Shown here: positions 2,772 through 18,233 of the stretch, piece by piece
Layout of the letters: every line of letters begins with the position of its first letter
Numbering within the stretch: the first letter of the stretch is position 1
Virus record (IMG/VR): IMGVR_UViG_3300031999_003076
Location: 1-24,391 of that record
DNA length: 24,391 bases
Reading direction: 5' to 3' (one strand)
Source of the DNA: a virus
Notes under the pieces: model-generated
Told to the model about the DNA's origin: nothing
Seen by the model: only the letters and a program-made list of their open reading frames with translations
Database searches by the model: none
Position numbers and translations under genes: made by a program

Positions 2772-3350
2772 ATGCGAAAGTTTAATAAAGAGAAATTAGA
2801 AAAAGCGGCAATTGCTTTAATTGACGCACTTGAATTGGATTTGCATGACCCTAATTTTGTAGATACGCCTAGTCGGATAGCTAGAATGTACGATGAGATA
2901 TGCTTGCCTAAAGAAGAGATAGAGGAACAAGTAAAGACGTACTTATCAAAGACGTTTCCTAGTCAGTATGATGGCATGGTAATTAGCAGAGGAATTCGTG
3001 CATATTCTGTATGCGGACATCACTTGCTACCGATAATTCTAGATGTGACATTAGCTTATATTCCTACTGATAAAGTGCTTGGCTTATCGAAGCTGGCACG
3101 CGTTGCTGTGACAATGGCTAAGCGACCACTAATCCAGGAAGACTATACACGTGATTTGGCAAGGATAATGATGGCGGTGTTAAAGCCTAAAGGTGTTGGT
3201 ATATACGTTGAAGGGGTACACTATTGCCAGACTATGCGTGGTGCTATGCAGAGAGATGCTATTATGACAACAACAGAAGTATTGGGGTGCTTTCGTAAAG
3301 ATGAGAAGACTAGAAGTGAGTTTCTTTTGGAAGCACGAACTAGAGTATGA
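2772..3350 (+). CDS. folE: GTP cyclohydrolase I
   Basis: FolE converts GTP to 7,8-dihydroneopterin triphosphate, the first step toward 7-deazaguanines and folate. The 192-residue protein has the zinc and catalytic residues C81, H83, H84 (CGHHLLP), H150 and C152 (GVHYCQTMRG), the GLSKLAR motif at 104-110, and the guanine-contacting QE at 122-123. The usual CEHH is CGHH here, a Glu-to-Gly change beside the zinc ligand. QueD, QueE, QueC and DpdA are in the same window, so it most likely feeds DNA modification rather than folate. AAGGAGGAG upstream of 2772 gives a strong start; the 3' end overlaps the next gene by 4 bases. Confidence 0.95.
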   Translation: MRKFNKEKLEKAAIALIDALELDLHDPNFVDTPSRIARMYDEICLPKEEIEEQVKTYLSKTFPSQYDGMVISRGIRAYSVCGHHLLPIILDVTLAYIPTDKVLGLSKLARVAVTMAKRPLIQEDYTRDLARIMMAVLKPKGVGIYVEGVHYCQTMRGAMQRDAIMTTTEVLGCFRKDEKTRSEFLLEARTRV

Positions 3351-3859
3351 GACTTGGTAGCGCCGTTAGAAATCAGATACGCTTAAAGTGCATTACTTGC
3401 GGTAAGTGGTTTAGTATAACGACGAACCATTTGCATTTGTATACTGAAGAGGTTAGAAGAACGTGGACGTGTGGTTTGCATCATAAGGATAGAGTTATTC
3501 CGAAAGGTAGTATTGTAAAGGAGGGAGCCACTATGGATGAACAGAAGAATGAACAGCCTGGAATAGTTGAGGAACAGGGAGTAAAAGGACAGCCTGAACA
3601 AGTCCTCGAGGAAGAGACACTTAAGAAAGCTGTAATGAAGATGGCCTACACTAAGAAATGGAAAGCAATACTTATTGGTAGGTATGCTGCAGGAGCAAAG
3701 ACAGTAACGCCCTTTATGGCTGTTGTAGAAGAGATTGTAATGACTAAGGTGCGTTCCAGAAATCCTGACGACCTGGAAAAACGGCGTGAGGACATGCGGC
3801 AGAATGCGAAAAAGGTACTTGCTAAGGCTTTCCCTGAGTTAGGTATAATCCCTAAATAG
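3347..3859 (+). CDS. Unknown protein with N-terminal zinc-finger module; internal start likely
   Basis: The 170-residue frame starts at an ATGA overlap with the folE stop. Residues 1-62 carry C15-x2-C18 and later C42 with H45/H46, a possible zinc finger. Residues 63-170 form a different region: an acidic, Gln-rich linker (about 63-90) followed by a basic helical domain with many Lys and Arg. A near-perfect ribosome binding site lies inside the gene in front of an in-frame ATG at 3533, so the second half is probably also made alone as a 108-residue protein. No family is recognised. Its place between folE and the dpdA leader suggests a link to the modification genes, without proof. Confidence 0.7.
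   Translation: MRLGSAVRNQIRLKCITCGKWFSITTNHLHLYTEEVRRTWTCGLHHKDRVIPKGSIVKEGATMDEQKNEQPGIVEEQGVKGQPEQVLEEETLKKAVMKMAYTKKWKAILIGRYAAGAKTVTPFMAVVEEIVMTKVRSRNPDDLEKRREDMRQNAKKVLAKAFPELGIIPK
3518..3535 (+). promoter_or_regulatory. Strong internal ribosome binding site and in-frame start
   Basis: AAGGAGGG at 3518-3525 stands 7 bases before ATG 3533, in frame with the gene starting at 3347. It is stronger than the gene's own start signal, so the short C-terminal product of 108 residues is likely made in excess. Confidence 0.65.
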
Positions 3860-3981
3860 CCCGTAAAGACCCTTAGAAATCACGCGGCGAATGGCCTAGC
3901 ACATGGTTTGCTAGGCATAACCATATCCCAGGATACCCCTGGTTTAGGATACGCTAAAAGCGATTAAAGAAGGTATAAGAT
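3860..3981 (+). promoter_or_regulatory. Structured leader RNA candidate upstream of dpdA
   Basis: This is the longest gap between genes in the window. It can fold into three hairpins in a row. The first pairs GCCTAGCA (3894-3901) with TGCTAGGC (3909-3916), 8 perfect base pairs and a 7-base loop. The second pairs CCAGG (3928-3932) with CCTGG (3938-3942), extended by ATC/GAT (3925-3927, 3948-3950). The third pairs CGCT (3952-3955) with AGCG (3959-3962). The first loop, ATGGTT (3903-3908), is also complementary to AACCAT (3919-3924), allowing a pseudoknot or an alternative hairpin that would break the first stem. GAAGG (3969-3973) is the dpdA ribosome binding site. It does not match the preQ1-I or preQ1-II consensus as I know them. 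No U-run terminator is seen. Confidence 0.5.
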
Positions 3982-5046
3982 ATGAATGTACCTTTACCGA
4001 CATTTATAACTGTAGTAATGAATATAGATTTTGACGAAAAAGATGGGAAGGTAGTAATCCCTGAATTTTTATGGAATTTTGATGCGATACTTTGCAGCGC
4101 AGGATTTTGGTATCCGCATACTCTCTTTGAGAAAAAAGGTAAGATAATGGTAGATTCCGCGGGCTTCCAGTTTCGCGGTCGGGCTAACCTACATAGACGA
4201 GGTGAGTTTCTTAGTCTGAGAGAAAAGTATTATCGTTGGCAGTGTGAGTATGGTGACTATATCATTGGTGGGGATATCCCGATTGGTATAACTAAGGATA
4301 TTAAGTTTATTAAAAATACGTTAGAGTTATCATTGAATAATATGCAGCTCCAATTTGATTTAGGTGCAGAGGGTCGTTACGTTAATGTTATACATGGTAG
4401 AGAGCCTGAGATAATTCGTTATTGGTATAGCGGAGTAAAAAAATTCCCTAGTATTGGTTGGGCATTTGGTTCTGCTTTAAAGACTTCTGTGTATGGTTTC
4501 GCTTTGCAATTGATAGCTCTTTATGAGTTAGGGGCATTTAAGCAGAAGCAGAAGATAATCCATTGTTTAGGAGCAACATCAAGAAAAGTCGCTGTTGGGA
4601 TGCATTATCTCGTTGAGAAGTTAGGAATAGAAACTGAGATGTTATCTTTTGATGCATCTAGTTCATCGGCGCATCGGTTTGGTATGCTTATAGATGAGAA
4701 TGGGGATGGCTTATCTTTCAAGGATGTTCGTGAAGGCAGGCCTTTTTTTCTTTGGAATGGCGAGAAGCTTGTTGATATACCGGCTAAGCTTGGCGGTGAA
4801 AGATTATATCATGTGATGAGAACAAATATGGAGAATGCTGTAAATGCTTGGAAAAAGAATGTTCAGAGAGTTGTTAGAGAGAAAGGAGAAGAGTATGATA
4901 GTTTGGTAGTTAGTAGTGGCGCCAAGTTTGTTTATGATACTTGGAAGGAACTTGGAGTGGATGGGTTGTGTAAAGAGATAGACCGTAGGGGTTTGATGGG
5001 AAGAGTATCAGCGATTGAAGCTATCGATAGCTGTAGGATTCTTTGA
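3982..5046 (+). CDS. dpdA: DpdA-like DNA guanine transglycosylase (7-deazaguanine insertion)
   Basis: The 354-residue protein is a phage-type member of the tRNA-guanine transglycosylase superfamily. DSAGFQ at 58-63 corresponds to the TGT motif with the catalytic Asp (D58), GGDIP is at 96-100, IHGRE at 137-141, and LSFDASS at 221-227 places a candidate nucleophile at D224. The TGT zinc site (CxCxxC with His) is not seen. DpdA enzymes exchange guanine in DNA for a 7-deazaguanine made by the FolE-QueD-QueE-QueC route, all of which is encoded here. It follows a structured leader and overlaps the polymerase gene (TGATG), consistent with modification coupled to replication. A tRNA-modifying role is less likely in this setting. 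Confidence 0.85.
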   Translation: MNVPLPTFITVVMNIDFDEKDGKVVIPEFLWNFDAILCSAGFWYPHTLFEKKGKIMVDSAGFQFRGRANLHRRGEFLSLREKYYRWQCEYGDYIIGGDIPIGITKDIKFIKNTLELSLNNMQLQFDLGAEGRYVNVIHGREPEIIRYWYSGVKKFPSIGWAFGSALKTSVYGFALQLIALYELGAFKQKQKIIHCLGATSRKVAVGMHYLVEKLGIETEMLSFDASSSSAHRFGMLIDENGDGLSFKDVREGRPFFLWNGEKLVDIPAKLGGERLYHVMRTNMENAVNAWKKNVQRVVREKGEEYDSLVVSSGAKFVYDTWKELGVDGLCKEIDRRGLMGRVSAIEAIDSCRIL

Positions 5047-7484
5047 TGAAGAAGCAAAATATAAAAATGACAATGCAGTCTATCCTTGGTGGTTCGGTGG
5101 CTGAGGTAACTGATGAAAAGAAGAAAGGTAAGTCCGCTAAAGTGTCTTGTGAAAATTGCCCTCTTAATGGAAAGACAAAGGTTATAGACCCACCTAAGGT
5201 AGCTGCAAGTATTCTCATTGTTGGAGAGGCTCCTGGAAAGGAAGAAGAAGCCCAAGGTAAACGATTTGTTGGAAAAAGCGGACAGCTACTTCGTTCTTGT
5301 TTGGATAGAGTTGGCATATCAGTTGATAAGGATGTACAGTTTACGAATGTATGTAATTGTCGACCGTCGAATGAGCGTGGTGATAATCGAACACCTGAGG
5401 GAAAAGAAATTGGCGTATGTTCCAAGCTTTATTTAGCTAGAGATATAGAACGCTTTAAGCATATTATTGTTGTTGGAAAGACCGCGGAAGAGGCGGTTTT
5501 AGGTGAAACGAATTCTTTTGCAAGAGGGAATGTTGTTTGGCATGGGGAAAAGCGTGTGGCTGTAACGCATCACCCAGCATCTATTTTAAGAAATCCTAAC
5601 GCAGCAGATGAGTATGTAATGGACTTTCGTTTCTTTAAGTCCGTATTCATTGATGACTACGAGCCGAAATACACTTTGGTTGACAGTATAGAAACAAGAA
5701 ATGCCCTTTATGCTAGCGTATTAAAATTAAAGATAGTAGTTGTTGATATAGAGACTACTGGACTAGAAGTAACAGACCAGATAACTCTCGTCGGCTTTTG
5801 CACCAATGATGGCGCATTTGTTGTACCGATTATAGGCAAGTTTATGGAAAATATTGAGGTAGTAAAGAAATGCCTATCGGTAAAAGATATAACTTACGTA
5901 CCACATAATGCGACATTTGAGTATAAGATGTTGAATAGTAACGGGCTTTGTGACTCAAGAATACACTATGATGATACGATGATAAATGCTTATTTGATTA
6001 CGCAAGGAAAAGGACGGGCTGGATATAAGTTAAAAAGTGTTGCAGTTGAGTTTGGCTTTAGATGGGCAAACTTAGTTTTGAATCCGGCAACAGAGCAAGA
6101 CTTTAAAAAGCTTTGTGCTTATAATGCAGAAGACTTAATCAATACTTGGAAGCTTTACTTTGAGCAGAAAGAAATGATGTCTAAAAATGGCTTGGCTAAT
6201 GTTGCAAAGAAAGTAACTGCACCAGCAATACCTATCATTGGTGATATGGAACGTTATGGCGTTAAGATAAATGTAGCAGGATTAGATGTAATTAGAAAGA
6301 GGTTAACTAAGCAGATATCGATACTGACCGAAGAGTTAACAGATAAGTTTGGTGAAAGGAATTGGAATAGTACGAAACAGCTTCAAGAAATATTTGCGGG
6401 ATTGCTTGACACAGAAGATGTTAAGAAGACTCCTGGAGGTAAGATAAGTACTGATGAAGGTGCTTTGAAGGCTTGTTTAGAGAGATGTGACAGTAATGAG
6501 AAATTGCCAAGTAGAGAAAATATAATATTTATTTGTGAGAGACTTTTGAAGCTGAGAGGAGCTTCCAAGCTTTTAGGAACATACGTAGAAGGTTTGACAA
6601 AGCGTTTAAGTTCGGATGGCAGGCTTAGGGGTAACTTTTCCTTAATTGGAACTGCGACAGGGAGGTTGTCTTCATTTGACCCAAACTTGCAAAATATTCC
6701 AAGAGGAAGTATTATTAAGTCTATATTTGTCGCTGAAGATGGCTATTCATTGATAGAAGCAGACTTGTCCCAAATTGAGTTAAGGGTAGTTGCTTCTATC
6801 GCTCCAGAGCAGGTAATGATTGATGCTTATAATAGAGGCACTGACTTGCATAGATTAACTGCAAGTTTAGTTTCCGGAGTGCCTTTGGAGCAGATAACGA
6901 AAGAACAAAGACAGACTGCAAAGTCGATTAACTTTGGTTTGATATATGGCATGTCTTGGCAAGGCTATAAAGCATACGCAAAAAATGAGTATGATATTAT
7001 TTTGACTAATGAGCAAGCACAGCAGTTTAGACAAACGTTCTTTGAGAAGTATCCTGGAATAAGAGAATGGCACTTAGAAGTTGAAACTAAAATGCGACAT
7101 GGCATGAATGAAGTTCGTACGGTTATGGGTAGGATAAGGTATCTAAAAGATGAGGAGTTCCTTCCTGGATTTTCAGGTGAGCAGGAGCTTGGACATAAAA
7201 TAAGGCAAGCGTTAAATACGCCCGTTCAGTCAGCGGCATCTGACTTGAATTTACAGGCTATGCGCGTAATTTGGGAAAAAATAGATAGTAGTTATTGTCG
7301 ATTTTTGCTAACAGTGCATGACGAATTTATGTTGGAATGCCGTGATGATAAGATACAGGAGGTATTGGCTTTGATTAAAGAGAGCGCACAGCAGGTTCAA
7401 AAGAATAATGATTGGCTTAAAGTGCCTTTTATATTTGATGTTAAGGTTGGAAAGAGTTGGAGCGAACTTAAAGAGGTTGAGTGA
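5046..7484 (+). CDS. Uracil-DNA glycosylase-like domain fused to family A DNA polymerase
   Basis: The 812-residue protein starts at ATG 5046, overlapping the dpdA stop; a TTG one codon earlier is unlikely. Residues 30-205 are a family 4-type UDG: GEAPGKEEEAQGKRFVGK (60-77), HHPAS (175-179), and likely 4Fe-4S cysteines C35, C38, C105 and C125. Residues 228-370 are a 3'-5' exonuclease: DIET (234-237), HNATFEY (287-293) and Y359-D363. Residues 380-812 are the polymerase: motif A with D573 (DLSQIELR), motif B R622-K626-F630-Y634, motif C HDE at 758-760. It is probably the replicative polymerase, used with the clamp. In exonuclease motif II the usual Asp is Glu (E292). SPO1 phage polymerase also carries a UDG-like N-terminus, so the fusion has precedent. 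Confidence 0.94.
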   Translation: MKKQNIKMTMQSILGGSVAEVTDEKKKGKSAKVSCENCPLNGKTKVIDPPKVAASILIVGEAPGKEEEAQGKRFVGKSGQLLRSCLDRVGISVDKDVQFTNVCNCRPSNERGDNRTPEGKEIGVCSKLYLARDIERFKHIIVVGKTAEEAVLGETNSFARGNVVWHGEKRVAVTHHPASILRNPNAADEYVMDFRFFKSVFIDDYEPKYTLVDSIETRNALYASVLKLKIVVVDIETTGLEVTDQITLVGFCTNDGAFVVPIIGKFMENIEVVKKCLSVKDITYVPHNATFEYKMLNSNGLCDSRIHYDDTMINAYLITQGKGRAGYKLKSVAVEFGFRWANLVLNPATEQDFKKLCAYNAEDLINTWKLYFEQKEMMSKNGLANVAKKVTAPAIPIIGDMERYGVKINVAGLDVIRKRLTKQISILTEELTDKFGERNWNSTKQLQEIFAGLLDTEDVKKTPGGKISTDEGALKACLERCDSNEKLPSRENIIFICERLLKLRGASKLLGTYVEGLTKRLSSDGRLRGNFSLIGTATGRLSSFDPNLQNIPRGSIIKSIFVAEDGYSLIEADLSQIELRVVASIAPEQVMIDAYNRGTDLHRLTASLVSGVPLEQITKEQRQTAKSINFGLIYGMSWQGYKAYAKNEYDIILTNEQAQQFRQTFFEKYPGIREWHLEVETKMRHGMNEVRTVMGRIRYLKDEEFLPGFSGEQELGHKIRQALNTPVQSAASDLNLQAMRVIWEKIDSSYCRFLLTVHDEFMLECRDDKIQEVLALIKESAQQVQKNNDWLKVPFIFDVKVGKSWSELKEVE

Positions 7485-7516
7485 TAACGCTAGCTAATTG
7501 TTTATATGATAGGAGG
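7480..7516 (+). promoter_or_regulatory. Promoter-like element upstream of the recombination genes
   Basis: GTGATAA (7481-7487) and TTTATA (7501-7506) keep the 20-base offset of the elements at 1074 and 14831, followed by TGATAGGAGG. As in those cases, the upstream half overlaps the stop region of the preceding gene. It would drive the UvsY, SSB and UvsX genes. Confidence 0.45.
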
Positions 7517-7524
7517 ATATGAAG

Positions 7525-7974
7525 ATGGCAGAACAGAATAGGCAGTGGTCACAGATAGTAGTCGAGGTAGATGGGCATCAGTTTGAGATTGACCCAAATG
7601 AATATTTGAAGATAGACTACTTTCAGATTAAAGAAGAATTGCTTAGATACGCGTCGAATGTGGCATGGATTGGTAGCATAAAGGAAGCAGTATCTAAGCA
7701 GCTTGGCGACCTAGAGTTTGAGGTTGATAAGCTTTACGCTTCGCTTGATTTAAAGTATAGGGATAGTTTGGAAGGAAAGAAAGCTCGGGAAATGGACAGA
7801 GAGGTAAAGAGCAACATTTATGGCAACGCAACGTACCAGGAATACCGAAGAAGGTTATCAGAGATGCGGTATCTTGAAGGCAAGATAAAAGCTATTTTAA
7901 GTGCCCTATCTAAGAAGGATAGTATGTTAGTGCAGCTTTGCACACTTTACAAAAATGAGCAGAGTAGGTTATAG
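7525..7974 (+). CDS. UvsY-like recombination mediator
   Basis: The second ATG at 7525 lies 8 bases after AGGAGG (7511-7516) and is preferred over ATG 7519, which is only 2 bases away. The 149-residue, mostly helical protein has the layout I associate with phage UvsY-like mediators: a helix with an aromatic and Asn pattern (near LLRYASNVAWI), a long charged helix with Leu, a middle region containing a TYQEY element, and a final helix carrying the KKDSMLVQL element. UvsY helps load UvsX onto ssDNA covered by gp32. The next two genes are exactly those partners, which is the strongest support. The assignment rests on pattern memory, not alignment. Confidence 0.6.
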   Translation: MAEQNRQWSQIVVEVDGHQFEIDPNEYLKIDYFQIKEELLRYASNVAWIGSIKEAVSKQLGDLEFEVDKLYASLDLKYRDSLEGKKAREMDREVKSNIYGNATYQEYRRRLSEMRYLEGKIKAILSALSKKDSMLVQLCTLYKNEQSRL

Positions 7975-8013
7975 GTGACTATTAGTGGCGGTGATTACCA
8001 GAGGAGGTAGTTT

Positions 8014-8940
8014 ATGGGTTTACGCATCGATGACTTTAAGAAGAAAATGGAAGAGAAGCATTCTGGTAGCTCTCAGTTCTATAAGTTGCAGGAAGGACAG
8101 ACGCACCAGATACGCTTGCTTCCAAGAAGTACTGCTTTTTTTACGGACAAAGGTGACGATGATTTTGCTTATGACTACCGCATACATTTCAAGATATTCG
8201 ATGTGAAGGGTTACAAGCGCCTTATTTGCAAGAGGTCGATTGGTGAGAAGTGCCCTATTTGTGAGTACGCTTTTGGTATGAAGGGCGACCCGAAGGCAAA
8301 GAAGCTTTTCCCAACGACAACGTACTTGTTCAATATTTACGATTACAAGAGCAAGAAGATTATGGTATTGGACACTCGTCCGTCAATCCATGACCAGATA
8401 GTTAAGATTTTAACGAATCCTCGCTATCAAGATTCAATCTTGCAGATTAAGAATGGTCGGGACATTACTATTGAGAAAGGAACAATCACCCCAGGCAAGC
8501 CTAATCCTGATTTGTATTCAGTTATGGCAGTACCTGATAGAACAGATGTAGTTGACCAGCTTCCGGAAGATTGGGAGACGCAAATAAATAATTTAGCTGA
8601 CTTAGTTCCGAGTATAGAGGAAGATGCAGTTTACTTGACGGTTGTAGATTGCCTGCGTAGTGGTAAACTTCCTGAGCCCCGTGAGATTAAGAAAGAGAAA
8701 GAGGTAGAGGAAGAAGCAGAGACAGTATCTGAAGCAAAACCGGCAGAGACTAAAGGTGAAGTTAAGAAGGAAGAGCCAGGGAAAGGTACAGATGCTCCTG
8801 CTACGGTTGAGAAGAAGGTTGAGGAAACTGTTAGCGGTGAGAAGCCTAAATGTTGGGGAGTAGACTTTGCTCCAAGGACAAAAGATTGCCAAGCATGTTC
8901 TTTGAAAGTTACTTGTAGAGATAAGGTATTTGCGTCATAA
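8014..8940 (+). CDS. Single-stranded DNA-binding protein, gp32-like
   Basis: The 308-residue protein carries C72-x7-C80-x2-C83 with H58 nearby, matching the His-Cys3 zinc site of T4 gp32, within a basic and aromatic OB-fold-like core (about 30-200). It should coat ssDNA in replication and recombination. Residues about 220-275 are a Glu/Lys-rich low-complexity linker. Instead of a plain acidic tail, the C-terminus ends in a second cysteine cluster, C280-x11-C292-x2-C295-x5-C301. AGAGGAGG before ATG 8014 gives a strong start. It is flanked by the UvsY-like and UvsX genes, the expected recombination partners. Confidence 0.87.
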   Translation: MGLRIDDFKKKMEEKHSGSSQFYKLQEGQTHQIRLLPRSTAFFTDKGDDDFAYDYRIHFKIFDVKGYKRLICKRSIGEKCPICEYAFGMKGDPKAKKLFPTTTYLFNIYDYKSKKIMVLDTRPSIHDQIVKILTNPRYQDSILQIKNGRDITIEKGTITPGKPNPDLYSVMAVPDRTDVVDQLPEDWETQINNLADLVPSIEEDAVYLTVVDCLRSGKLPEPREIKKEKEVEEEAETVSEAKPAETKGEVKKEEPGKGTDAPATVEKKVEETVSGEKPKCWGVDFAPRTKDCQACSLKVTCRDKVFAS

Positions 8941-8954
8941 GAAGGAGAAAGAAG

Positions 8955-10019
8955 ATGAGTATAACACAGAAGGAAAGAGAAAAGCTTGAAGAGGGTTTAA
9001 GAAAAGACCTTGGCGGGGGTACGATGGCTGAGATACCTGTTAGAGGCTTTTTGTCTACTGGCAGTATTTCACTTGATTACGCTATTCGAGGTCAGCTTTG
9101 GGATGGCGGATATCCTCGTGGTCGTATAGTTGAACTGTATGGGGACCCGTCAACTGGTAAAAGTTTGTTAATAGCCCATGCTATAGCTAATGCGCAAAAG
9201 CTTGGCTGGTATGTTATTTATGATGATGCAGAAAACTCTTTGGATTCGTTCTTTATGCAGAAGCTTGGCGTAAGGAATGACTTATCGATTGTTAATTCTG
9301 AGACAATCGAGGGCCATGTAAAGAGAGTTTCTCGTTGCATAAAGAAAATACGTGAAGCTGATGCTGAGACGCCCATCTTGATTTGTTTAGATAGCTTGGC
9401 AGCATTGTCAACAACGCATGAAAGAGGCTCACCTGAGAAGCTTGAAGCAGATGTTGCGAACGAAATAATTCCAGATGTCAATCTTGATAAGCGTGATATG
9501 ACTAAGGCACAGCTAATCAGAGGGGCAATGAGAGTATTAGCATCACGCTTTATGAAGGAAGATGTTTTATACATTTGCACTAATCACGTGACACAGAAGA
9601 TTGGGGTAATGTATGGACCGACAACAACGACGCCAGGAGGAACAGGGGTTAAGTTTCACGCATCTGTTAGGATAGACTTGAACAAAGGAAAGAAGTTCGA
9701 GAACAATGAAGGCCCGACTGGGCATCAGATTTATGCCGAAGTAACAAAAAATAAAGTAGCCCCACCGTATAAGAAGGTCAACTTCAATATGTTTTTTGCT
9801 TCTGGTGTTGACCTTTATTCTGGAACCTTTGATATTCTCCAAAAGATGGGGATAGTTAGCGAAGGCGGCGGGTGGTATACAACTCGCTTAACTGGGAAAG
9901 ATAAGTTTCGCAGTAAGACTTTAGAAACGCCTGAAATGATGGGAAAGTTAATAACAGCTGTAAGAGAAGGAAAAGAGTCAATTGAGGTTGCGGATGACGA
10001 AGAAAAGAAAGAAGACTAA
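8955..10019 (+). CDS. RecA/UvsX-like recombinase
   Basis: The 354-residue strand-exchange ATPase has Walker A GDPSTGKS at 63-70 and a Walker B strand ILICLDSLAAL near 135-145. A glycine-rich loop near residue 230 (TTTPGGTGVKF) corresponds to DNA-binding loop L2. Length and layout match T4 UvsX and phage RecA proteins. It would form filaments with the SSB and UvsY-like proteins encoded just upstream, for recombination-dependent replication and repair. GAAGGAGAAAG precedes ATG 8955. The tail is very acidic, as in many RecA proteins. The stop TAA is one base before the glycosyltransferase start. Confidence 0.92.
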   Translation: MSITQKEREKLEEGLRKDLGGGTMAEIPVRGFLSTGSISLDYAIRGQLWDGGYPRGRIVELYGDPSTGKSLLIAHAIANAQKLGWYVIYDDAENSLDSFFMQKLGVRNDLSIVNSETIEGHVKRVSRCIKKIREADAETPILICLDSLAALSTTHERGSPEKLEADVANEIIPDVNLDKRDMTKAQLIRGAMRVLASRFMKEDVLYICTNHVTQKIGVMYGPTTTTPGGTGVKFHASVRIDLNKGKKFENNEGPTGHQIYAEVTKNKVAPPYKKVNFNMFFASGVDLYSGTFDILQKMGIVSEGGGWYTTRLTGKDKFRSKTLETPEMMGKLITAVREGKESIEVADDEEKKED

Positions 10020-10020
10020 G

Positions 10021-10827
10021 ATGGTGACGATAGGGATTGTAACCGCGGATAGATATCCGATGTTGCTATCCTTATTACGTTCGTTGGCTACAATTGACCA
10101 CGTTACTGCCCACAAGACAGAGATTATTGTTTTAGACAATTCTGTTAATGATGGACCGGTAAGTAGTAGAGAATGGAACGCGATGCTTACTGTCTTAACG
10201 TTGTGTGGATTTACTATGAGGTATACTAAGATTTCGCATGGGTTTACTATATATCAGCTTAGGCAAATGGTTTTAGACATGTGTGAGTCGCGGTACCTTT
10301 GGTTTTTGGATGATGATTGTATAATTGTTAGAGACCCCTTGGCTATAATGTTGGGTACAATGCGGTATGCGAATGACAGCTATGGATTTGTTCAAGGTGC
10401 TGTGATTGATTGTGACAACACTGAAGGATTTAGTGATTGGAGTATTAAGAAAGATAAACTTGTTGAGATAGGAGGAACACCTTGTTGGTATTACTGGTAT
10501 AAAGAAAGTTATAGGGTTCCGACTATAAAAATGACTAATGCAAATGTGCTCTTAAATGTTAAAATTGCTAAGGATGTTGGTGGTTATACTTATAAAGGAG
10601 ATAGACCATTTGAAGCGCACCTTGGCAATGCTGATACGTATTTAGGAGCAAAGTTGGCTAGTGTTAGCCAGTGCTTATTTACAAGTGATGCTAGAGTATT
10701 TCATTATCCTGCTGAGAAAAGAAACTTTGTAAGAGACTTTTCTTGGATGTTTCCTATATTAGAAGATGGTTGTAGCAAAAAAGTGGTTGAAGCTTTATAC
10801 GCTTACCATAAGGCTAAGCATGGTTAG
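10021..10827 (+). CDS. GT-A fold glycosyltransferase (family 2-like)
   Basis: The 268-residue protein begins with a nucleotide-binding strand (VTIGIVTADRYP), has a second strand IIVLDNS at 35-41, and has a metal-binding DDD at 97-99 in YLWFLDDDC, all features of GT-A glycosyltransferases. An earlier in-frame ATG at 9982 would add 13 very basic residues inside the recA frame; ATG 10021, one base after the recA stop, fits the fold better. The acceptor is unknown. It could glycosylate modified DNA, a virion protein or the host surface. Its place just upstream of a radical SAM gene and queC makes a base-decorating role attractive, but that is inference. Confidence 0.75.
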   Translation: MVTIGIVTADRYPMLLSLLRSLATIDHVTAHKTEIIVLDNSVNDGPVSSREWNAMLTVLTLCGFTMRYTKISHGFTIYQLRQMVLDMCESRYLWFLDDDCIIVRDPLAIMLGTMRYANDSYGFVQGAVIDCDNTEGFSDWSIKKDKLVEIGGTPCWYYWYKESYRVPTIKMTNANVLLNVKIAKDVGGYTYKGDRPFEAHLGNADTYLGAKLASVSQCLFTSDARVFHYPAEKRNFVRDFSWMFPILEDGCSKKVVEALYAYHKAKHG

Positions 10828-10830
10828 AAT

Positions 10831-11766
10831 ATGAAGAATTATAATCCGAGACATTGTTGTTTTTACGTAACATCAAAATGTAATCTAGCTTGTAGCTATT
10901 GCTCGGTAGCTAAGAATTGGCCTAAAAGAGAAATGTCTATTGGTAGAGTATGTGAGACTCTTGACATAGTTAAGAACGTGGTTAAGCCTCAGTTTCTTGT
11001 TTTATTTGGTGGTGAACCTTTGTTGAGAGATGATATTAGCTCCCTTATTGACGAGGTAAATAAAAGAGACTTCGAGTATACTCTTATATCGAATGGAACT
11101 ATCGATAGGGAGTTTGTCATAAAAAAGTTGAGAGGCTTCACTTTGTCCATTGATAGACCGGATGAGGTTAAGGATGGCGTATCTGAAGCATGCAAGTCTA
11201 GTTGGAAAATGCTTAAGAAGTATAAGGATATCGTCCCTGACTTAGTAGCAAATATTACTGTTACGCATGACAATATAGACGACTTGGAAAAGATAGTCGA
11301 CCAGCTTAACGAGCTTGGGATATGGATTATCTTTGGGTATGTCCATAGTACGAGAAATAAAGAAGAGAAAGCAATGTTTAGAAGCTACTGCCCACGGTTG
11401 ACATTGACCGCTGAAGACTTTCAGACATTCAAGGAAGTATTTTATAAGGCAAAGAAAAGGCATAATGTTGATGCTTATGTTAAAGAGATGTCAAGGTATA
11501 TGGGAATGATGAATTGGCATTGTTCTAAGAATCCTCGGAATCCTGAATACCTTACGATAGCAAATAATGGGATGCTTATAGCTTGCAATGACTTTTGGGG
11601 AGAGAGAACGACTAAGCTTAGTGTGTTTGATTTGCCTGAGATTGGTATGAAGAAGTGGCTTGAGGTATGTAAGGAAGATAGGGAAGAGTGCCAATTGACG
11701 TGTGCGTATAATCATGAAGTGCAATTGTGCTACGGCGGAAACATTATCCATAAGGGAGATATATAA
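10831..11766 (+). CDS. Radical SAM enzyme with C-terminal cysteine-rich (SPASM/Twitch-like) region
   Basis: The 311-residue protein has the radical SAM cluster motif C17-x3-C21-x2-C24, GGEP at 60-63 and an LISNG element near 90, followed by a TIM-barrel pattern. The C-terminal third has extra cysteines, including a closely spaced group near residues 288-302 (ECQLTCAYNHEVQLC), which suggests one auxiliary iron-sulfur cluster. It differs from the QueE at 13321, which is shorter and lacks these cysteines. The stop overlaps queC by one base (TAATG), so it is co-translated with deazaguanine genes. Its reaction is unknown: modification of the deazaguanine, a sugar, or a peptide are all possible. 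Confidence 0.8.
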   Translation: MKNYNPRHCCFYVTSKCNLACSYCSVAKNWPKREMSIGRVCETLDIVKNVVKPQFLVLFGGEPLLRDDISSLIDEVNKRDFEYTLISNGTIDREFVIKKLRGFTLSIDRPDEVKDGVSEACKSSWKMLKKYKDIVPDLVANITVTHDNIDDLEKIVDQLNELGIWIIFGYVHSTRNKEEKAMFRSYCPRLTLTAEDFQTFKEVFYKAKKRHNVDAYVKEMSRYMGMMNWHCSKNPRNPEYLTIANNGMLIACNDFWGERTTKLSVFDLPEIGMKKWLEVCKEDREECQLTCAYNHEVQLCYGGNIIHKGDI

Positions 11767-12545
11767 TGGCATTACCGAGGTGTAAATCTTTGGCCAAATC
11801 AAGCGCTAGCCCTATACCGCCTACCTTAAAACGGCTTGGAATACAGGGTTCTGTGGTTTTATGCAAAAGTTCTGGTGTTGATAGTTTTATAGCCGAATTC
11901 TATTTAAAAAGATTAAAAGCTGAATATTTGAGTGTGTATTTTAATTTATGTACGAAGTATACTCGTAAAGAGGTTACTACAATACAGTATAAGCTTAATG
12001 GCGTTGATAAGATAGATGACAGATTGGCGTGGTTGGGGGAATGTGAGAAAGGTAGTAATGCTTTTATTCCACAGAGAAATTTGTTACTCGCTTCTGTAGC
12101 AAGTATTAAGTATGCTCATAATGTACTTATTGCGGGAATAAGTGGTGACGAAGTTGAGGATAAAAATCCTGAGTTTTTTAATGAAGTATCTGATGTATTG
12201 TCGGGCATTAGTAGATATAAGATTAGAGTATTTTCACCATTTTGGAATTTAGACAAGATTGAACTAGTAAAATGGTACATAGATGCTGGTGGAAGTATTG
12301 AACAGTTAAAAGAGACAGTGTCTTGTTACAGTTTTAAAGAAAGAGGGTGTTGTAATAAGTGCCCTAGTTGTTTTAGAAGATTTATAGCTCTAAGAGCAAA
12401 TGGAATAGCTATAGACTTTTACGATAGAAAACTTGCTCTTAGTTATTATAGAAGATGTTTAGCTGGAAAGTACGCTAAGAAAAGACGTATTGGAACTATA
12501 AGTGTGCTTAGAGATTACTATCAAGGTGATAAAAGATTTTTATGA
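11766..12545 (+). CDS. queC: QueC-like 7-cyano-7-deazaguanine (preQ0) synthase
   Basis: QueC turns 7-carboxy-7-deazaguanine, ammonia and ATP into preQ0. The 259-residue protein has a PP-loop at 35-40, the family element FIPQRNLLLAS at 100-110, and an exact QueC zinc site C187-x8-C196-x2-C199-x2-C202. The PP-loop reads SSGVDS instead of the usual SGGxDS, so one conserved glycine is serine. About 25 residues precede the PP-loop strand, longer than usual. It lies in a run with QueD and QueE. Identity is well supported; the altered loop leaves open changed activity or a variant product such as an amide. Confidence 0.85.
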   Translation: MALPRCKSLAKSSASPIPPTLKRLGIQGSVVLCKSSGVDSFIAEFYLKRLKAEYLSVYFNLCTKYTRKEVTTIQYKLNGVDKIDDRLAWLGECEKGSNAFIPQRNLLLASVASIKYAHNVLIAGISGDEVEDKNPEFFNEVSDVLSGISRYKIRVFSPFWNLDKIELVKWYIDAGGSIEQLKETVSCYSFKERGCCNKCPSCFRRFIALRANGIAIDFYDRKLALSYYRRCLAGKYAKKRRIGTISVLRDYYQGDKRFL

Positions 12546-12595
12546 AGAAAAGAAGATTGGCAGAAGATTTGTTTAGTGAAAATAGGAGGAGATGA
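12542..12595 (+). CDS. Possible 17-aa coupling peptide
   Basis: An ATG at 12542 overlaps the queC stop (ATGA) and opens an 18-codon frame whose TGA (12593-12595) overlaps the ATGATG start of the next gene. The peptide is basic (starts MKKRRL, ends NRRR), and its last codons AGG AGG AGA are the ribosome binding site of the next gene. It may simply carry ribosomes across the gap. No independent evidence of translation. Confidence 0.3.
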   Translation: MKKRRLAEDLFSENRRR

Positions 12596-12906
12596 TGACC
12601 TATTTTGAAGAGCAGGCTAAGGCTGATTCGTTTCTTAATAGTTTTTATGAAGCATATTTCGCTCAGAAGGAAGTGCCAGATAGACAAGAGATGTATACGA
12701 ATGTAAGATTTTTAGCCTCGGCTGCGATTAACTGCGACAGATTAGGTATTAAAGATTTGGGAAAGACGATGGGCGACAGGTTGGAGATTTATGTGTGGAT
12801 GCTTCAACAGCTTGGTTATAAGCATGGGCATAGTTTAAGAAGAAAGAGAAGACCAGGATTATTCGATTTTCTTGGTGGCATCTTTGGTGGAATAAAGGTA
12901 GAATAG
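12595..12906 (+). CDS. Unknown small protein within the deazaguanine cluster
   Basis: The frame gives 103 residues from ATG 12595, which lies 5 bases after AGGAGG (12584-12589); the adjacent ATG 12592 is too close. The first 80 residues look helical, with several aromatic residues. The C-terminus has a basic patch (RRKRRP) followed by a glycine and phenylalanine-rich hydrophobic end. No catalytic motif or known family is seen. It lies between queC and queD with short gaps, so it is surely co-transcribed with them. It could be a partner of the pathway or an unrelated small phage protein. Confidence 0.65.
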   Translation: MTYFEEQAKADSFLNSFYEAYFAQKEVPDRQEMYTNVRFLASAAINCDRLGIKDLGKTMGDRLEIYVWMLQQLGYKHGHSLRRKRRPGLFDFLGGIFGGIKVE

Positions 12907-12917
12907 GAGGTAGAAGG

Positions 12918-13319
12918 ATGAAGGTATATTTGAAGAGAACAATAGCGGCAGGCCATATTTTAGAGAATAAGTCGAAGGATGCCGAATGGAATAAGAATAC
13001 TTTTGGTAAATGCAATCATGCGATTCATGGCCACAACTTTTTGGTTCAGGTATGGGTTGATGGACTTACTGATGAAGATACAGGTATGGTTGTAAACTTT
13101 AATGAGATAAAGAACGTTATTGATACTTTTGACCATGAGACATTGAATAATATTATGCCCACAATTCCGACAGCAGAAAATCTTGTTAGCTTAATGAAAG
13201 ATATGCTTATGAAAAAGCTTTATAGCATAAATGATACGATAACTGAAATACGTGTTAGGATTTGGGAAACTGACAATGCATATGCTGAAGATATAGTTTC
13301 GACTAAAAAAGATTTGTAA
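12918..13319 (+). CDS. queD: 6-carboxy-5,6,7,8-tetrahydropterin synthase
   Basis: QueD converts 7,8-dihydroneopterin triphosphate to carboxytetrahydropterin, the second step of deazaguanine synthesis. The 133-residue protein has the zinc ligands H13, H37 and H39 (HGHN), the catalytic cysteine region around C32, the GMVVNF element, the DHETLN motif with catalytic Asp-His, PTAEN, and the C-terminal WETDNAYAE with the substrate-binding Glu. Length is normal for the family. AGGAGG (12905-12910) sits 7 bases before the ATG. The stop is one base before queE, so the two are translated together. Confidence 0.93.
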   Translation: MKVYLKRTIAAGHILENKSKDAEWNKNTFGKCNHAIHGHNFLVQVWVDGLTDEDTGMVVNFNEIKNVIDTFDHETLNNIMPTIPTAENLVSLMKDMLMKKLYSINDTITEIRVRIWETDNAYAEDIVSTKKDL

Positions 13320-13320
13320 T

Positions 13321-13977
13321 ATGAAACTTATTCCGATATCTGAAATATTTATGGGATTGCAAGGGGAAGGACGTTATACTGGACACCCTGCGGTTTTTGT
13401 GAGGGTATCTGGATGCACGAGACATTGTTCCTATTGTGATAGTTCTTTTCATCGTCAACCGATAGCTAAGCTTAGCCCTGAAGATATATTGGCAGAAATA
13501 AAAAAGTGTGGAAAAGACCTAAAGGATTATAGGGTAGTATTGACTGGTGGTGAGCCTCTTTTAAGTAAAGAAGCACTTTTTGATTTCACTGACTGTTTAG
13601 CGTCGGAGGGTGTATACCAAATAGATTTAGAAACGAATGGTGATTTGATTAAGACGTACAATGATTGGTATGAATTATATTGGGACTTTGCTTACATCGC
13701 GATATCGCCTAAAGTCTATGAAGTAGGAAGAAGAGTGGCAAAGTTGTTTGAGAGAACAGACTCTAAAAGATATGATATAAAGATTGTCACAGATGGAAAA
13801 ATGCTTGGTATGGATATGCTAAGATTCGCGACAATGCTTATGCCTTTAACGACAAAAAATGAAAAAGAGAATAAGCTAATAAGACAGCGTGTATGGAATC
13901 AATGTATTCAGCATGGTTTGATTTTTTCCGGTCGACAGCATGTAGAAGTATGGGGACCAAAGAAGAGGGGTGTATGA
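13321..13977 (+). CDS. queE: 7-carboxy-7-deazaguanine synthase (radical SAM)
   Basis: QueE rearranges carboxytetrahydropterin to 7-carboxy-7-deazaguanine. The 218-residue protein begins with the family signature EIFMGLQGEG (8-17), then GHPAVFVRVSGC, with radical SAM cysteines C32, C36 and C39. TGGEPL is at 75-80, LETNG in the next strand and ISPK further on. All are canonical for QueE. It follows queD by one base and overlaps the phosphoribosyltransferase by 4 bases (ATGA). A second, cysteine-less relative is encoded at 17598. Confidence 0.95.
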   Translation: MKLIPISEIFMGLQGEGRYTGHPAVFVRVSGCTRHCSYCDSSFHRQPIAKLSPEDILAEIKKCGKDLKDYRVVLTGGEPLLSKEALFDFTDCLASEGVYQIDLETNGDLIKTYNDWYELYWDFAYIAISPKVYEVGRRVAKLFERTDSKRYDIKIVTDGKMLGMDMLRFATMLMPLTTKNEKENKLIRQRVWNQCIQHGLIFSGRQHVEVWGPKKRGV

Positions 13978-14423
13978 AGAAGGATGTAGCTATTCCTTGG
14001 AAGCTGTTAGATTCATTTAGAAGCCTTATTTTGGCTAATTACTTTGGGAAGGTTGATTTTGTTGTAGGTATAATGAATGGTGGTGGAATACCCGCTATAG
14101 TTGCTGGTTTGTCTTTGGACGTTCCGATATATTGGCTATATCTAAAAAGCTATAAGGGAAGAAAGTGTGGAAGAGTTGAGATGGAAACTTGTTTGCTTCC
14201 TATGGATAACCCTAAAGGAAGAATTTTACTTGTAGATGATATATTTGACTCTGGAAAAACATTAGAGTTTAGTTTAAGATTTTTGGATGGTTTAAAGTTT
14301 AAAAATGTTCAAAGCGTAACTATGTTATCTAAGGATAGAGAGAAAACAAAAAAGATGCACGTGGAATATTTGCTTAAAGCGGGGAAGAATCAGTGGGTGG
14401 TATTTCCGTGGGAGCATGAATGA
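13974..14423 (+). CDS. Phosphoribosyltransferase
   Basis: The preferred start is ATG 13974, overlapping the queE stop; a longer in-frame start at 13893 would lie wholly inside queE. The 149-residue protein has the type I PRTase PRPP-binding motif ILLVDDIFDSGKT at 84-96, an early strand FVVGIMNGGGIPA (29-41) like the PPi loop, and a flexible middle with Lys and Arg. Related enzymes attach ribose-5-phosphate to purine bases such as hypoxanthine, xanthine or guanine. In this operon it might salvage guanine released by DpdA, or convert a deazaguanine base to a nucleotide; either is inference. The stop overlaps the next gene (ATGA). Confidence 0.85.
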   Translation: MKKDVAIPWKLLDSFRSLILANYFGKVDFVVGIMNGGGIPAIVAGLSLDVPIYWLYLKSYKGRKCGRVEMETCLLPMDNPKGRILLVDDIFDSGKTLEFSLRFLDGLKFKNVQSVTMLSKDREKTKKMHVEYLLKAGKNQWVVFPWEHE

Positions 14424-15820: not shown

Positions 15821-16309
15821 ATGAGATGTAGGTACTGTGGAAGGGAAGTAACAAGTGGTAAGAAGTATTGTCGTGGACATAATCCGGCTAGTCACACTTA
15901 TAGGAATACGAAAGAAGGAAATAGAAAGATAAGTCTTTGGAATACTGGTCGACCATGTTCAGAAGAAAAATTAAGAAAAATGAGGGAAAATAATCCTACG
16001 TTGAGGGCTATAGGCAGTACACAGAAAGTTGGCGGGTATACGCAGATTAAAATTAGGATTGGTGAGAAAAATTTTTGGGTATATGAGCAGCGTTTGATAG
16101 TAGAACAGCACCTTGGAAGAAAGTTGCGGCGCGGAGAAGTTGTACACCATATCAATGAAGATAGAGCAGACAATTGTGTAGAAAATTTAATGGTCTTTAG
16201 TAGCAATGGCGCGCATTTAAAATATCATGCGGACCCATTGAGGGTTAGAATAGATGAGATTATTTTTAATGGAGGGGAATTAAATGGTAACTTTGCTAAT
16301 AGATGTTGA
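15821..16309 (+). CDS. HNH endonuclease with N-terminal zinc knuckle
   Basis: The protein has a CRYCG knuckle at its N-terminus with a later C and H (KYCRGH), then an HNH_3-type nuclease motif: VVHHINEDRADN followed by ENL and a terminal HLKYH. These are features of free-standing HNH homing endonucleases of phages. Start is uncertain: ATG 15812 is only 2 bases after AGGAGG (15804-15809) and ATG 15821 is 11 bases after; 162 residues result from the latter. The 3' end overlaps the next gene by 26 bases. It is probably a selfish insertion between two unrelated genes. Confidence 0.88.
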   Translation: MRCRYCGREVTSGKKYCRGHNPASHTYRNTKEGNRKISLWNTGRPCSEEKLRKMRENNPTLRAIGSTQKVGGYTQIKIRIGEKNFWVYEQRLIVEQHLGRKLRRGEVVHHINEDRADNCVENLMVFSSNGAHLKYHADPLRVRIDEIIFNGGELNGNFANRC

Positions 16310-17090
16310 TAATGTTATTCGTGCGCTTGATGTCTCAGTCTGGGGTAAATATAATGAGGTATGGGTAAAAGACGTTGATGGAGTACCATTTAGGGAGTTT
16401 ATCGAGAAGGACTTAGAGAAGTATCTCGTTAATGCCCCCGAGACAGAGTATTGTCAGACATTGAAAGATTGGGATGCTCTTGTTGGCATAAGTAACGTTA
16501 CATTTTTGACTAGTCAGCCGGTGACGTGGAGGCCGTATACTGAACGTTGGATTAAGGCTAGATTTCCGAATGCTAAGATTGTTTTTACCGACACGCCTGA
16601 GGATAAGATTGAGATACTCAATATGCTTAGACTCGCAGGAGCACCTGCAACGCTAATAGAAGATTACCCTAAGTTTAAGAGCTATCAAGGCATTACGCTT
16701 ATTGATAGGGCTTACAATAGAGAAATAAAAGCTGATACAAGAATAAAAGACCCGTTTCAGCTACTGCAAGTACTAATTCAGGCTTATGTGTATGGAATAA
16801 GAAATGCCGCAAAACTTTGCCATGCCATAGCGAAAAAGAAAGGTTGGTGGGATGATAAGCGTAGTGAGGGAGAAGCTATAGCGTTAATGCACTCAGAATT
16901 GTCTGAGGCACTTGAAGCAATGAGGGCGAAAGAAAGAAGTGAGAATGCTATTATAGAGGAATTGGTTGATACTTGTGTACGTGTGTTTGACTATTGTGAC
17001 GGCAAGTATCCTGATAGATTTGAGAATGGCTTTATAGCAAAGCTAGCTATCAATTTGGACAGACCATATAGACATGACAAAAGGTTTTAA
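16284..17090 (+). CDS. HAD-type nucleotidase fused to MazG-like nucleotide pyrophosphohydrolase
   Basis: The 268-residue protein has two enzymes. Residues 1-150 are HAD-like: DVDNV at 7-11 (motif I), FLTSQP (motif II), EDKIE (motif III Lys) and LIEDYP (motif IV acids), like deoxynucleotide 5'-nucleotidases. Residues 175-268 are an all-alpha MazG-type NTP pyrophosphatase with the metal-binding pattern HSELSEALEAMR and EELVDTCVRVFDY. Together they could degrade dNTPs to dNMPs and then to nucleosides, shaping the nucleotide pool. GGAGGGGAA before ATG 16284 is strong although the gene starts inside the HNH frame. Functions are read from motifs; the nucleotide specificity is unknown. Confidence 0.82.
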   Translation: MVTLLIDVDNVIRALDVSVWGKYNEVWVKDVDGVPFREFIEKDLEKYLVNAPETEYCQTLKDWDALVGISNVTFLTSQPVTWRPYTERWIKARFPNAKIVFTDTPEDKIEILNMLRLAGAPATLIEDYPKFKSYQGITLIDRAYNREIKADTRIKDPFQLLQVLIQAYVYGIRNAAKLCHAIAKKKGWWDDKRSEGEAIALMHSELSEALEAMRAKERSENAIIEELVDTCVRVFDYCDGKYPDRFENGFIAKLAINLDRPYRHDKRF

Positions 17091-17100
17091 GAGGAGTACA

Positions 17101-17616
17101 ATGGAGGATAGAATATTAGCAAAGTTTGTTGTCAATGTGATTATTAAGAAGCAGAAAGCGCCTTCTATGCCTGTGTGGATGGAAGAGCTGCTTAAGCGTT
17201 ATACGATTGTTGATTCTGACAATCGTATAGTTTTGAGTATGCCGGTAGATTGGGTAGGATTGACTGATGGAACAGTACATGATATAATCAATCAATTTGG
17301 GTCGGCAGCATATATCTCATTGGCTTATATTACGAATGGAGATGAGATAGTTGTTGATTGCTCTGGTGAACGTGTAGATACTTTTAAGATGGTTGAAGGT
17401 AGTATTATAATGCAGAGGTATGTTAAGAGGGATTTACGCATAATTAAGATATTAAACAAGGAGAGGGAGGTATTTATAGTGAAAGACTATATTCTTGACC
17501 TTTCAAAGTTTGATAGCATTGTAAAGGTATTGGATTTATATTGTGTTGGTATGGAAAGTGGAATTAGGGTTGCAGATTTTTTAGCGGGGGGTCGCTTATG
17601 TCAAAAAATGTCTTAG
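17101..17616 (+). CDS. Unknown protein, 171 aa
   Basis: AGAGGAG just before ATG 17101 favours this start over ATG 17074 inside the preceding gene. The product mixes strands and helices, with no transmembrane segment, cysteine cluster or nucleotide-binding loop that I can recognise. Its last 6 codons overlap the start of the QueE-like gene at 17598. The overlap and shared orientation suggest that the two are expressed together, so it may be a partner of that protein, but this is only proximity. Confidence 0.65.
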   Translation: MEDRILAKFVVNVIIKKQKAPSMPVWMEELLKRYTIVDSDNRIVLSMPVDWVGLTDGTVHDIINQFGSAAYISLAYITNGDEIVVDCSGERVDTFKMVEGSIIMQRYVKRDLRIIKILNKEREVFIVKDYILDLSKFDSIVKVLDLYCVGMESGIRVADFLAGGRLCQKMS

Positions 17617-18233
17617 TTGTAGAGTCAATCGTTGACACTATCCGTGGTGAGTCGCCATCGTCTGGTGTGCCGTCACTTGTATTAAATGTTGACCCTGAAA
17701 GTGAGAGGGAGATTAACGCGGATGCTTTTTGCGATTTAGTAAAGGATAGCGTAGGAGAGGTTGTCACGTTCATCGGTAGGCCGTTTACTCAGCTACCTGC
17801 TTTAGCAGAGCTGGTTACGTCTTTTTATTCTTGCAAAGGAGATAAGAAGATTTTTATAGAGACATCTGGAAGAATATCGAAGGAGATGCAGCAGAGAGAG
17901 CTTATTGTTCCTATTGTATCGAAGACTACTTTGGTTATTAAGCCTCGGGTTGGCAATATAAACAGTAAGGAATACGAGTGGTTAGCTCATTATCGTTTTA
18001 GTAGCGTGTACTGGAAATTTTCGTGGCAAGGAAATGTTGAGAAGACTAACGATTTAATATCAACGTTCTTTCGCTTCTGTTTAAGCAAAGATGTCATTGA
18101 GGATGTAAGTGAGGGCAGGGTAATCCTTATCCCTAAGGATATTGACAATAAGGATGAGTGCAAGGAAGTATGGAACTATTGCTTGATGTCGCATATTAGG
18201 TACTCTGCGAGAGAATCACGACGACTATTTTGA
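17598..18233 (+). CDS. Cysteine-less QueE-like protein (probable inactive radical SAM homologue)
   Basis: This 211-residue protein follows the QueE outline but lacks the iron-sulfur site. The N-terminal EIFMGLQGEG of QueE corresponds to ESIVDTIRGES (9-19), then G-x-P and a hydrophobic strand. Where QueE has CxxxCxxC this protein has an acidic stretch without cysteines (about 31-40). VVTFIGRPFTQ (55-65) matches VVLTGGEPLLS, and IFIETSG (85-91) matches IDLETNG, at similar spacings. Later, VIKPR corresponds to ISPK. It therefore probably keeps the barrel but cannot bind the cluster. It may bind a deazaguanine or pterin, or partner the active QueE at 13321. It was matched by eye, not by alignment software. 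Confidence 0.6.
   Translation: MSKNVLVVESIVDTIRGESPSSGVPSLVLNVDPESEREINADAFCDLVKDSVGEVVTFIGRPFTQLPALAELVTSFYSCKGDKKIFIETSGRISKEMQQRELIVPIVSKTTLVIKPRVGNINSKEYEWLAHYRFSSVYWKFSWQGNVEKTNDLISTFFRFCLSKDVIEDVSEGRVILIPKDIDNKDECKEVWNYCLMSHIRYSARESRRLF

Follow-up and report, generated by a model that had tools for sequence, protein, structure and literature searches.

What base does a virus make when it carries homologues of every enzyme leading from GTP to preQ0, together with a DpdA-type transglycosylase that could place the product in DNA? We addressed this question for the IMG/VR virus record IMGVR_UViG_3300031999_003076, a genome fragment known from sequence alone; the window analysed here is the full record of 24,391 bases. 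A previous sequence-only reading described a complete GTP-to-preQ0 pathway (FolE, QueD, QueE and QueC) plus DpdA, interleaved with the replisome. Homologues of the four enzymes are all found where it had placed them, with matches to PF01227, PF01242, phrog_2076 and PF06508, and its remark that known phages with such genes carry 7-deazaguanines in their DNA agrees with Escherichia phage CAjan (dPreQ0) and phage 9g (dG+) (PMC6884629). The core of the locus is ordinary, replisome-linked preQ0/DpdA clusters being already known in Queuovirinae. Since the same gene set lies beside clamp and polymerase in phages with known modified DNA (CAjan and 9g), DpdA-based 7-deazaguanine modification of the viral DNA is the best reading that our analysis offers. 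However, the type of QueC, its constant radical S-adenosylmethionine (SAM) partner and a phosphoribosyltransferase point to a variant pathway and make preQ0 an unsafe prediction; the significance of the latter two genes (10831-11766 and 13974-14423) had been overlooked. A variant DpdA-type pathway of DNA modification, with an altered QueC step, tailoring by the radical SAM enzyme and recycling of guanine by the phosphoribosyltransferase, is in our judgment probable, if with modest confidence.

The altered step is that of the QueC-like ATPase (11766-12545, + strand), which we regard as non-canonical from the comparison of motifs and from its position in the tree. It is a true member of PF06508 (E=3e-15) yet scores far below the TIGR00364 equivalog cut-off, and its loop reads SSGVDS, not the canonical SGGxDS. 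Both pocket motifs, YxQxHxxE and YPDC, are replaced, by LCTKYTRKE and VEDK, respectively. In an alignment with the QueC proteins of phages CAjan, phiSM and Dp-1, which show the canonical pocket motifs in the same columns, YPDC has become xxDK in almost every viral relative of the window QueC. Residues are numbered by the E. coli QueC sequence, with which the phage QueCs agree on the motif columns; the positions corresponding to Y35 and Y131 are substituted in the window QueC. Retained are VPxRN, in the form IPQRN, the zinc cysteines of C(x)8CxxCxxC and the tyrosine following the first of these cysteines. In E. coli QueC, which like canonical QueC in general belongs to PF06508 cluster 1, alanine at Y35, R99 or Y131 abolishes preQ0-dependent tRNA modification (PMC13329287). 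The window QueC and its relatives (58 rows) form a single viral clade on a long branch with an SH-aLRT support of 99, and the pocket motifs are lost throughout. Because this clade has lost pocket motifs that are essential in E. coli QueC, preQ0 as the end product of the locus appears doubtful. Thus, the claim of a complete pathway to preQ0 stands as far as the presence of the four homologues is concerned and falls short at QueC.

No QueC above the TIGR00364 cut-off was detected in any of 24 viral records, some of them longer than 100 kb. Only two of these records (L062 and L067) have a second, Gat (amidotransferase)-QueC-like copy beside the non-canonical one, which suggests that the two types are not redundant. 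In both, a radical SAM gene lies between the two copies. Methyltransferase-like open reading frames (ORFs) adjoin QueC in L041 and L067.

The constant partner of this QueC is a radical SAM enzyme with a Cys-rich, SPASM/twitch-like C-terminus (10831-11766, + strand; PF04055 E=6e-15), the gene of which overlaps queC by 1 nt. In a 19-row alignment of the family, C17, C21, C24, C231, C252 and C291 are invariant and C287 is nearly so; the CX3CX2C motif and the C-terminal auxiliary-cluster cysteines of SPASM/twitch enzymes are therefore present, and cluster binding is predicted. The family profile matches CteB and further SPASM structures. It is distinct from QueE, as most members score 28-97 bits with the window radical SAM protein as single query and 0 with the window QueE. 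RaSEA, viperin and the remaining named radical SAM families were rejected, since all NCBIfam scores fall far below the cut-offs.

To follow this family we scanned viral loci and 84,980 prokaryote genomes with the radical SAM family alone as seed, QueC not being used. The scan returned 28 loci, of which 27 are viral; the lone prokaryote match is a Sulfuricurvum metagenome-assembled contig that carries the same cluster. QueC is present in 27 of the 28 loci (within 600 nt in 23), and the only locus lacking it is truncated by a contig end, while DpdA occurs in nearly all. Two members of the family used as queries gave no match among 50,697 phage records. The window radical SAM enzyme thus founds a virus-restricted SPASM/twitch family that is paired with the non-canonical QueC. 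It may tailor the amide or the carboxylate before the base is inserted, or act on the base once it is in DNA; decarboxylation, for which there is BlsE- or AhbD-like similarity, is one option only. Comparison of the window with a sister contig gives a dN/dS (ratio of nonsynonymous to synonymous substitution rates) of 0.14 for this gene, as expected under purifying selection, and a dS of 1.29 against 0.3 or less in neighbouring genes; recombination therefore appears to have exchanged this gene.

Directly upstream lies a gene for a family 2 glycosyltransferase (GT2) with a DDD motif (10021-10827, + strand; PF00535 E=1e-5). Its frame is open from 9982, and the ATG at 10021 directly follows the recA stop. 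Weak relatives (21-23% identity) are found near QueC in L055, L057 and L059. Its dN/dS of 0.22 (window against sister contig) indicates purifying selection, and a role as a tailoring enzyme is possible. Around GT2 the sister contig has additional ORFs (window 10006-11326 compared with L002 9244-11599).

The sequence-only reading had argued from the absence of QueF to preQ0 or a derivative. Neither QueF, QueF-like, amidotransferase (Gat) nor ArcS genes were seen in the scanned window ORFs or in 6 kb of upstream sequence from a sister contig, the genome being incomplete. The step from a missing QueF to preQ0 is weak: because both QueC pocket motifs are lost, the clade is a separate viral one and a radical SAM partner is found in 27/28 loci, a base tailored beyond preQ0, or another product altogether, is at least as likely as preQ0 itself.

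The purine phosphoribosyltransferase (PRTase) is encoded at 13974-14423 (+ strand; PF00156 E=2e-12), with a start that overlaps the queE stop as ATGA. The top PDB match of its profile is the purine PRTase 1vdm (E=5e-16), and its phosphoribosyl pyrophosphate (PRPP) motif is invariant. These features place it in the 6-oxopurine phosphoribosyltransferase fold family, with guanine as the predicted substrate. When homologues were collected by iteration from the window, the PRTase gene was no more than 150 nt from a pathway gene in 21 of 25 loci and no more than 1.5 kb away in all 25; RecA, polymerase and clamp loader are found in the same loci at median distances of 2.7-5.8 kb. The gene orders vary (QueE-PRT-QueD, DpdA-PRT, QueD-PRT-QueE and FolE-PRT). 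A profile made only of free-standing PRTases also matches long FolE proteins at their N-terminus (E=2e-15 to 1e-4, the best unrelated background being 0.012). Such PRTase-FolE fusions occur in six distinct uncultured loci (L041, L044, L050, L054, L063 and L068) and in the cultured phages PaMx25, Quinobequin-P09, VpKK5, Bhz54, MMDA13 and Vibrio 1.117.O, where they are annotated merely as 'GTP cyclohydrolase'. QueC is nearby in each fusion locus, as is DpdA where annotated. In PaMx25 (L008 9130-10023) the annotated folE start is too late, and the open frame takes in the N-terminal PRTase domain, which partly overlaps a separate hypothetical coding sequence.

Since the fusion partners span Gat-QueC and plain-QueC phages, a PRTase tied to one end product is unlikely. 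The simplest reading of these patterns is that the PRTase would salvage the guanine released by DpdA and return it to the GTP pool. The quantity at stake can be estimated for CAjan, in which ~70,600 modified bases per million nt have been reported (PMC6884629); with a genome of 59.7 kb, this level corresponds to ~8,400 guanines released per genome copy. Recycling by the PRTase, if it occurs, would account for the fate of the guanine removed from DNA, on which the base-exchange model is silent. As fusions are present in cultured phages, the role of the PRTase is open to immediate experiment. Our search of the open-licence literature found no paper that treats DpdA, a phosphoribosyltransferase and phage together, and the novelty of this proposal is bounded accordingly.

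It is important to weigh whether these additional genes are needed to explain the locus. If the pathway were the ordinary one of group-2 phages, preQ0, or 7-amido-7-deazaguanine (ADG), would be the product of the divergent QueC and would be inserted by DpdA, with the radical SAM enzyme, GT2 and PRTase as unrelated passengers. In most of these viruses the non-canonical QueC has no second QueC beside it and is grouped with FolE, QueD, QueE and DpdA, which fits this account, as do the dPreQ0 of CAjan, which has the same core genes (PMC6884629), and the retention in the window QueC of RN, of all zinc cysteines and of the essential Tyr beside the first of them. However, the two lost motifs hold the Tyr residues that E. 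coli QueC requires (PMC13329287). Passengers are also not expected to accompany QueC in nearly every locus found without a QueC query, as the radical SAM family does, nor to be adjacent to pathway genes in varied orders or fused to one of them, as the PRTase is. We therefore consider the ordinary pathway somewhat unlikely, although it deserves to be kept in mind.

For the PRTase alone, a different function can be proposed. It might ribosylate the 7-deazaguanine base to a nucleotide, to be polymerised or pooled, a base-to-nucleotide route of the kind proposed for Campylobacter phages without a recognised DpdA (PMC6884629), or it might be a PRPP-binding sensor controlling FolE; the shortness of the FolE-fused domains is a further point in favour. 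Yet all of these viruses have DpdA too, which requires the free base; the fusion partner is a GTP-consuming enzyme; and the PRTase occurs in phages predicted to make different bases, with Gat-QueC in some and canonical QueC in others. Both versions appear unlikely to us, and salvage of guanine is the function that we prefer.

The exchange itself is assigned to a divergent DpdA-type guanine transglycosylase (3982-5046, + strand), on the basis of a 27-row alignment, a structure model, fold searches and the occurrence of its relatives in FolE-QueC-DpdA clusters. No trustworthy match came from direct searches against families, PDB sequences or phages (tblastn). A profile that included known phage DpdAs recovered 19 distant marine viral relatives, whose FolE-QueC-DpdA clusters also include QueE, clamp loader and RecA; one of these relatives scores above the Pfam cut-off for PF01702 TGT (tRNA-guanine transglycosylase). 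Folding from the single sequence gave a poor model (pLDDT 36.7), which was superseded by an AlphaFold2 model built with the 27 rows (pLDDT 70.4, pTM 0.76). With this model, Foldseek matched TGTs at E=1.5e-6 and the solved DpdA 7ui4 at E=3.7e-6, and VIA-align matched archaeosine TGT with Z=17.9 and a root-mean-square deviation of 3.9 over 274 residues. D58, S59, G61, Q63, D98, P100, G139, H194, G197 and D224 are invariant across the 27 rows; DSAGFQ and the Asp at the nucleophile position, marks of the TGT superfamily, are thus kept, as are DxP and HxxG, and the C-terminal CxCxxC zinc motif is absent. The protein belongs to the TGT/DpdA fold, as the earlier description of a DpdA-type transglycosylase had it, and its specificity for DNA is predicted. 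It does not show the mark of the DpdA2 subfamily, a missing His196 (PMC6884629), since the invariant window His194 aligns with His196 of 9g DpdA. The DpdA1 profile and PF01702 are blind to the window's type of DpdA, and a window-type profile is blind to DpdA1. With the DpdA1 profile, viruses that have the radical SAM gene do show a DpdA, 23 of 25 related records having a DpdA1-type gene. In the gut phage record MT835482 (L006 8671-10869), the DpdA gene by eye apparently has an intein-like insertion ending in VVVHN.

The three enzymes upstream of QueC in the pathway are clearly identified. FolE, a GTP cyclohydrolase I (2772-3350, + strand; PF01227 E=6e-51), is above the cut-off of NCBIfam NF006826, and its translation has the zinc-ligand motifs CGHH and CQTMRG. 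QueD is of the T-fold 6-carboxytetrahydropterin synthase type (12918-13319, + strand; PF01242 E=2e-23); it reaches 66.6 bits with TIGR03367, the cut-off of which is 89.25, and has the motif C-x4-HGH, where C-x3-HGH is the commoner form. QueE, the radical SAM 7-carboxy-7-deazaguanine synthase (13321-13977, + strand; phrog_2076 E=4e-32), has CX3CX2C and matches a profile of six phage QueEs with E=2.6e-29 (hhalign).

Taken together, the pathway that we favour would run as follows. FolE, QueD and QueE would convert GTP to 7-carboxy-7-deazaguanine (CDG), the carboxylate of which the non-canonical QueC-like enzyme would activate with ATP, to give an amide-level or otherwise altered base. The SPASM-type partner, perhaps with GT2, would tailor this base, either free or in DNA, and the DpdA-like transglycosylase would swap the tailored base for guanine in viral DNA. 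The PRTase would convert the guanine freed in each exchange to GMP, thereby pulling the exchange forward and replenishing the GTP pool that FolE uses. A bolder form of this proposal, to which we give somewhat less than even weight, is a virus-only deazaguanine branch in which a re-purposed QueC and a dedicated SPASM radical SAM enzyme make a base new to DNA, with a free or FolE-fused PRTase recycling the ejected guanine.

Several observations weigh against these proposals. The non-canonical QueC, being the sole QueC in most of these viruses, may still make preQ0 by means of a different pocket. The PRTase is detectable in only 37 of 72 loci having FolE, QueE and QueC and is thus not obligatory, the FolE-fused PRTase domains are short with weak Pfam scores, and the kinship of GT2 is weak. 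The transglycosylase shows no detectable similarity to DpdA1, with an hhalign probability of 0.6% to a 9g/CAjan DpdA profile, and its fold match to tRNA TGTs at least equals that to the solved DpdA. These last two points would favour a tRNA-guanine transglycosylase, by which the virus would raise the level of queuosine precursors in the tRNA of its infected host; this is nevertheless very unlikely given that QueF, QueA, QueG and QueH are not seen, that the zinc motif of tRNA TGTs is missing, that related clusters are located among replication genes and that in cultured phages built on the same gene plan the base is found in the DNA and depends on dpdA (PMC6884629).

The window virus also has a QueE paralogue, or pseudo-QueE (17598-18233, + strand), which matches the QueE profile over residues 4-93 (hhalign E=7.5e-6) and the window QueE with E=0.002 (blastp). 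The CX3CX2C [4Fe-4S] loop that defines QueE is a gap in the alignment. It was not found in the other loci examined and is confined to the window virus and its near copies; it may pair with QueE as a heterodimer, act as a regulator or be a relic.

The reported interleaving with the replisome is borne out. A weak sliding clamp-like match (PF00712 E=2e-4) and a clamp loader (PF00004 AAA E=4e-15) are at 1130-2718, a uracil-DNA glycosylase (UDG) domain fused to a family A DNA polymerase (UDG-PolA) at 5043-7484 (PF03167 E=5e-23, PF00476 E=2e-88) and RecA at 8955-10019 (PF00154 E=4e-44), all on the + strand; these genes and one for a protein resembling single-stranded DNA-binding proteins are interspersed with the pathway genes. 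Polymerases homologous to UDG-PolA recur in many virus loci with the radical SAM-QueC pair. The window has no close DNA match among the 50,697 phage records; two sister contigs are nearly collinear with it. Of these, 3300031746_002328 is 99.8-99.9% identical to the window and has ~6.5 kb of additional upstream sequence, and 3300031885_002373 shows 95.6% identity as far as recA and is divergent beyond. Sister contig sequence upstream of the window (L003 1-6019) has genes for the co-chaperonin GroES, for a member of the SPFH/Band 7 proteins and for a protein whose N-methylation motif resembles that of type IV prepilins. The ORF at 16284-17090, which has no Pfam match, appears by eye to combine a HAD-like phosphatase with a MazG-like domain, and small HAD-like ORFs adjoin QueC or DpdA in L020, L041, L056 and L067. 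At 23632-23832, a hexanucleotide tandem array (~33 x TGGCTA) lies within an open frame whose translation is a series of Gly/Tyr-rich repeats.

Among known systems, the Queuovirinae are the cultured counterpart. DpdA is required for DNA modification in CAjan, and a group of phages that have DpdA with FolE/QueD/QueE/QueC and no amidotransferase has been described (PMC6884629); the window shares FolE, QueD, QueE and a TGT-fold transglycosylase with that group. CAjan and 9g, as well as the Pseudomonas phages PaMx25 and Quinobequin-P09, resemble the window in having FolE, QueD, QueE, QueC and DpdA beside clamp and polymerase, and the PaMx25-like phages, VpKK5, Bhz54 and MMDA13 also have the PRTase, there as a FolE fusion. 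They differ in their canonical or Gat-fused QueC and their DpdA1, and neither the SPASM-type radical SAM enzyme, GT2 nor pseudo-QueE was found in Queuovirinae. The uncultured virus 3300026484_000284 (L169) has DpdA of the same broad type, the radical SAM enzyme, non-canonical QueC, QueE, FolE, QueD and PRTase within 7 kb. The wider group of viruses with the radical SAM-QueC pair shares that pair, UDG-PolA and the clamp loader with the window, whereas most have a DpdA1-type enzyme, no separate PRTase (some a FolE-fused one), no GT2 match and no pseudo-QueE. The nearest family to the window's DpdA is in marine virus clusters (L020, L023 and L034), which likewise have QueE, PRTase, QueD, FolE, QueC and DpdA near clamp loader and RecA; unlike the window, they have no radical SAM partner, a DpdA with the C-terminal zinc motif and a QueE with a long insert. 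The solved structures nearest to the window QueC type are QueC first, then Cap9 and QatC. In these QueC-like defence proteins, too, the QueC fold is reused with an altered pocket, but they act with a defence partner, whereas the window QueC stands in a full CDG pathway with DpdA. If this QueC and its radical SAM partner make a new base, a defined gene pair would widen the range of known natural DNA bases and of anti-restriction chemistry.

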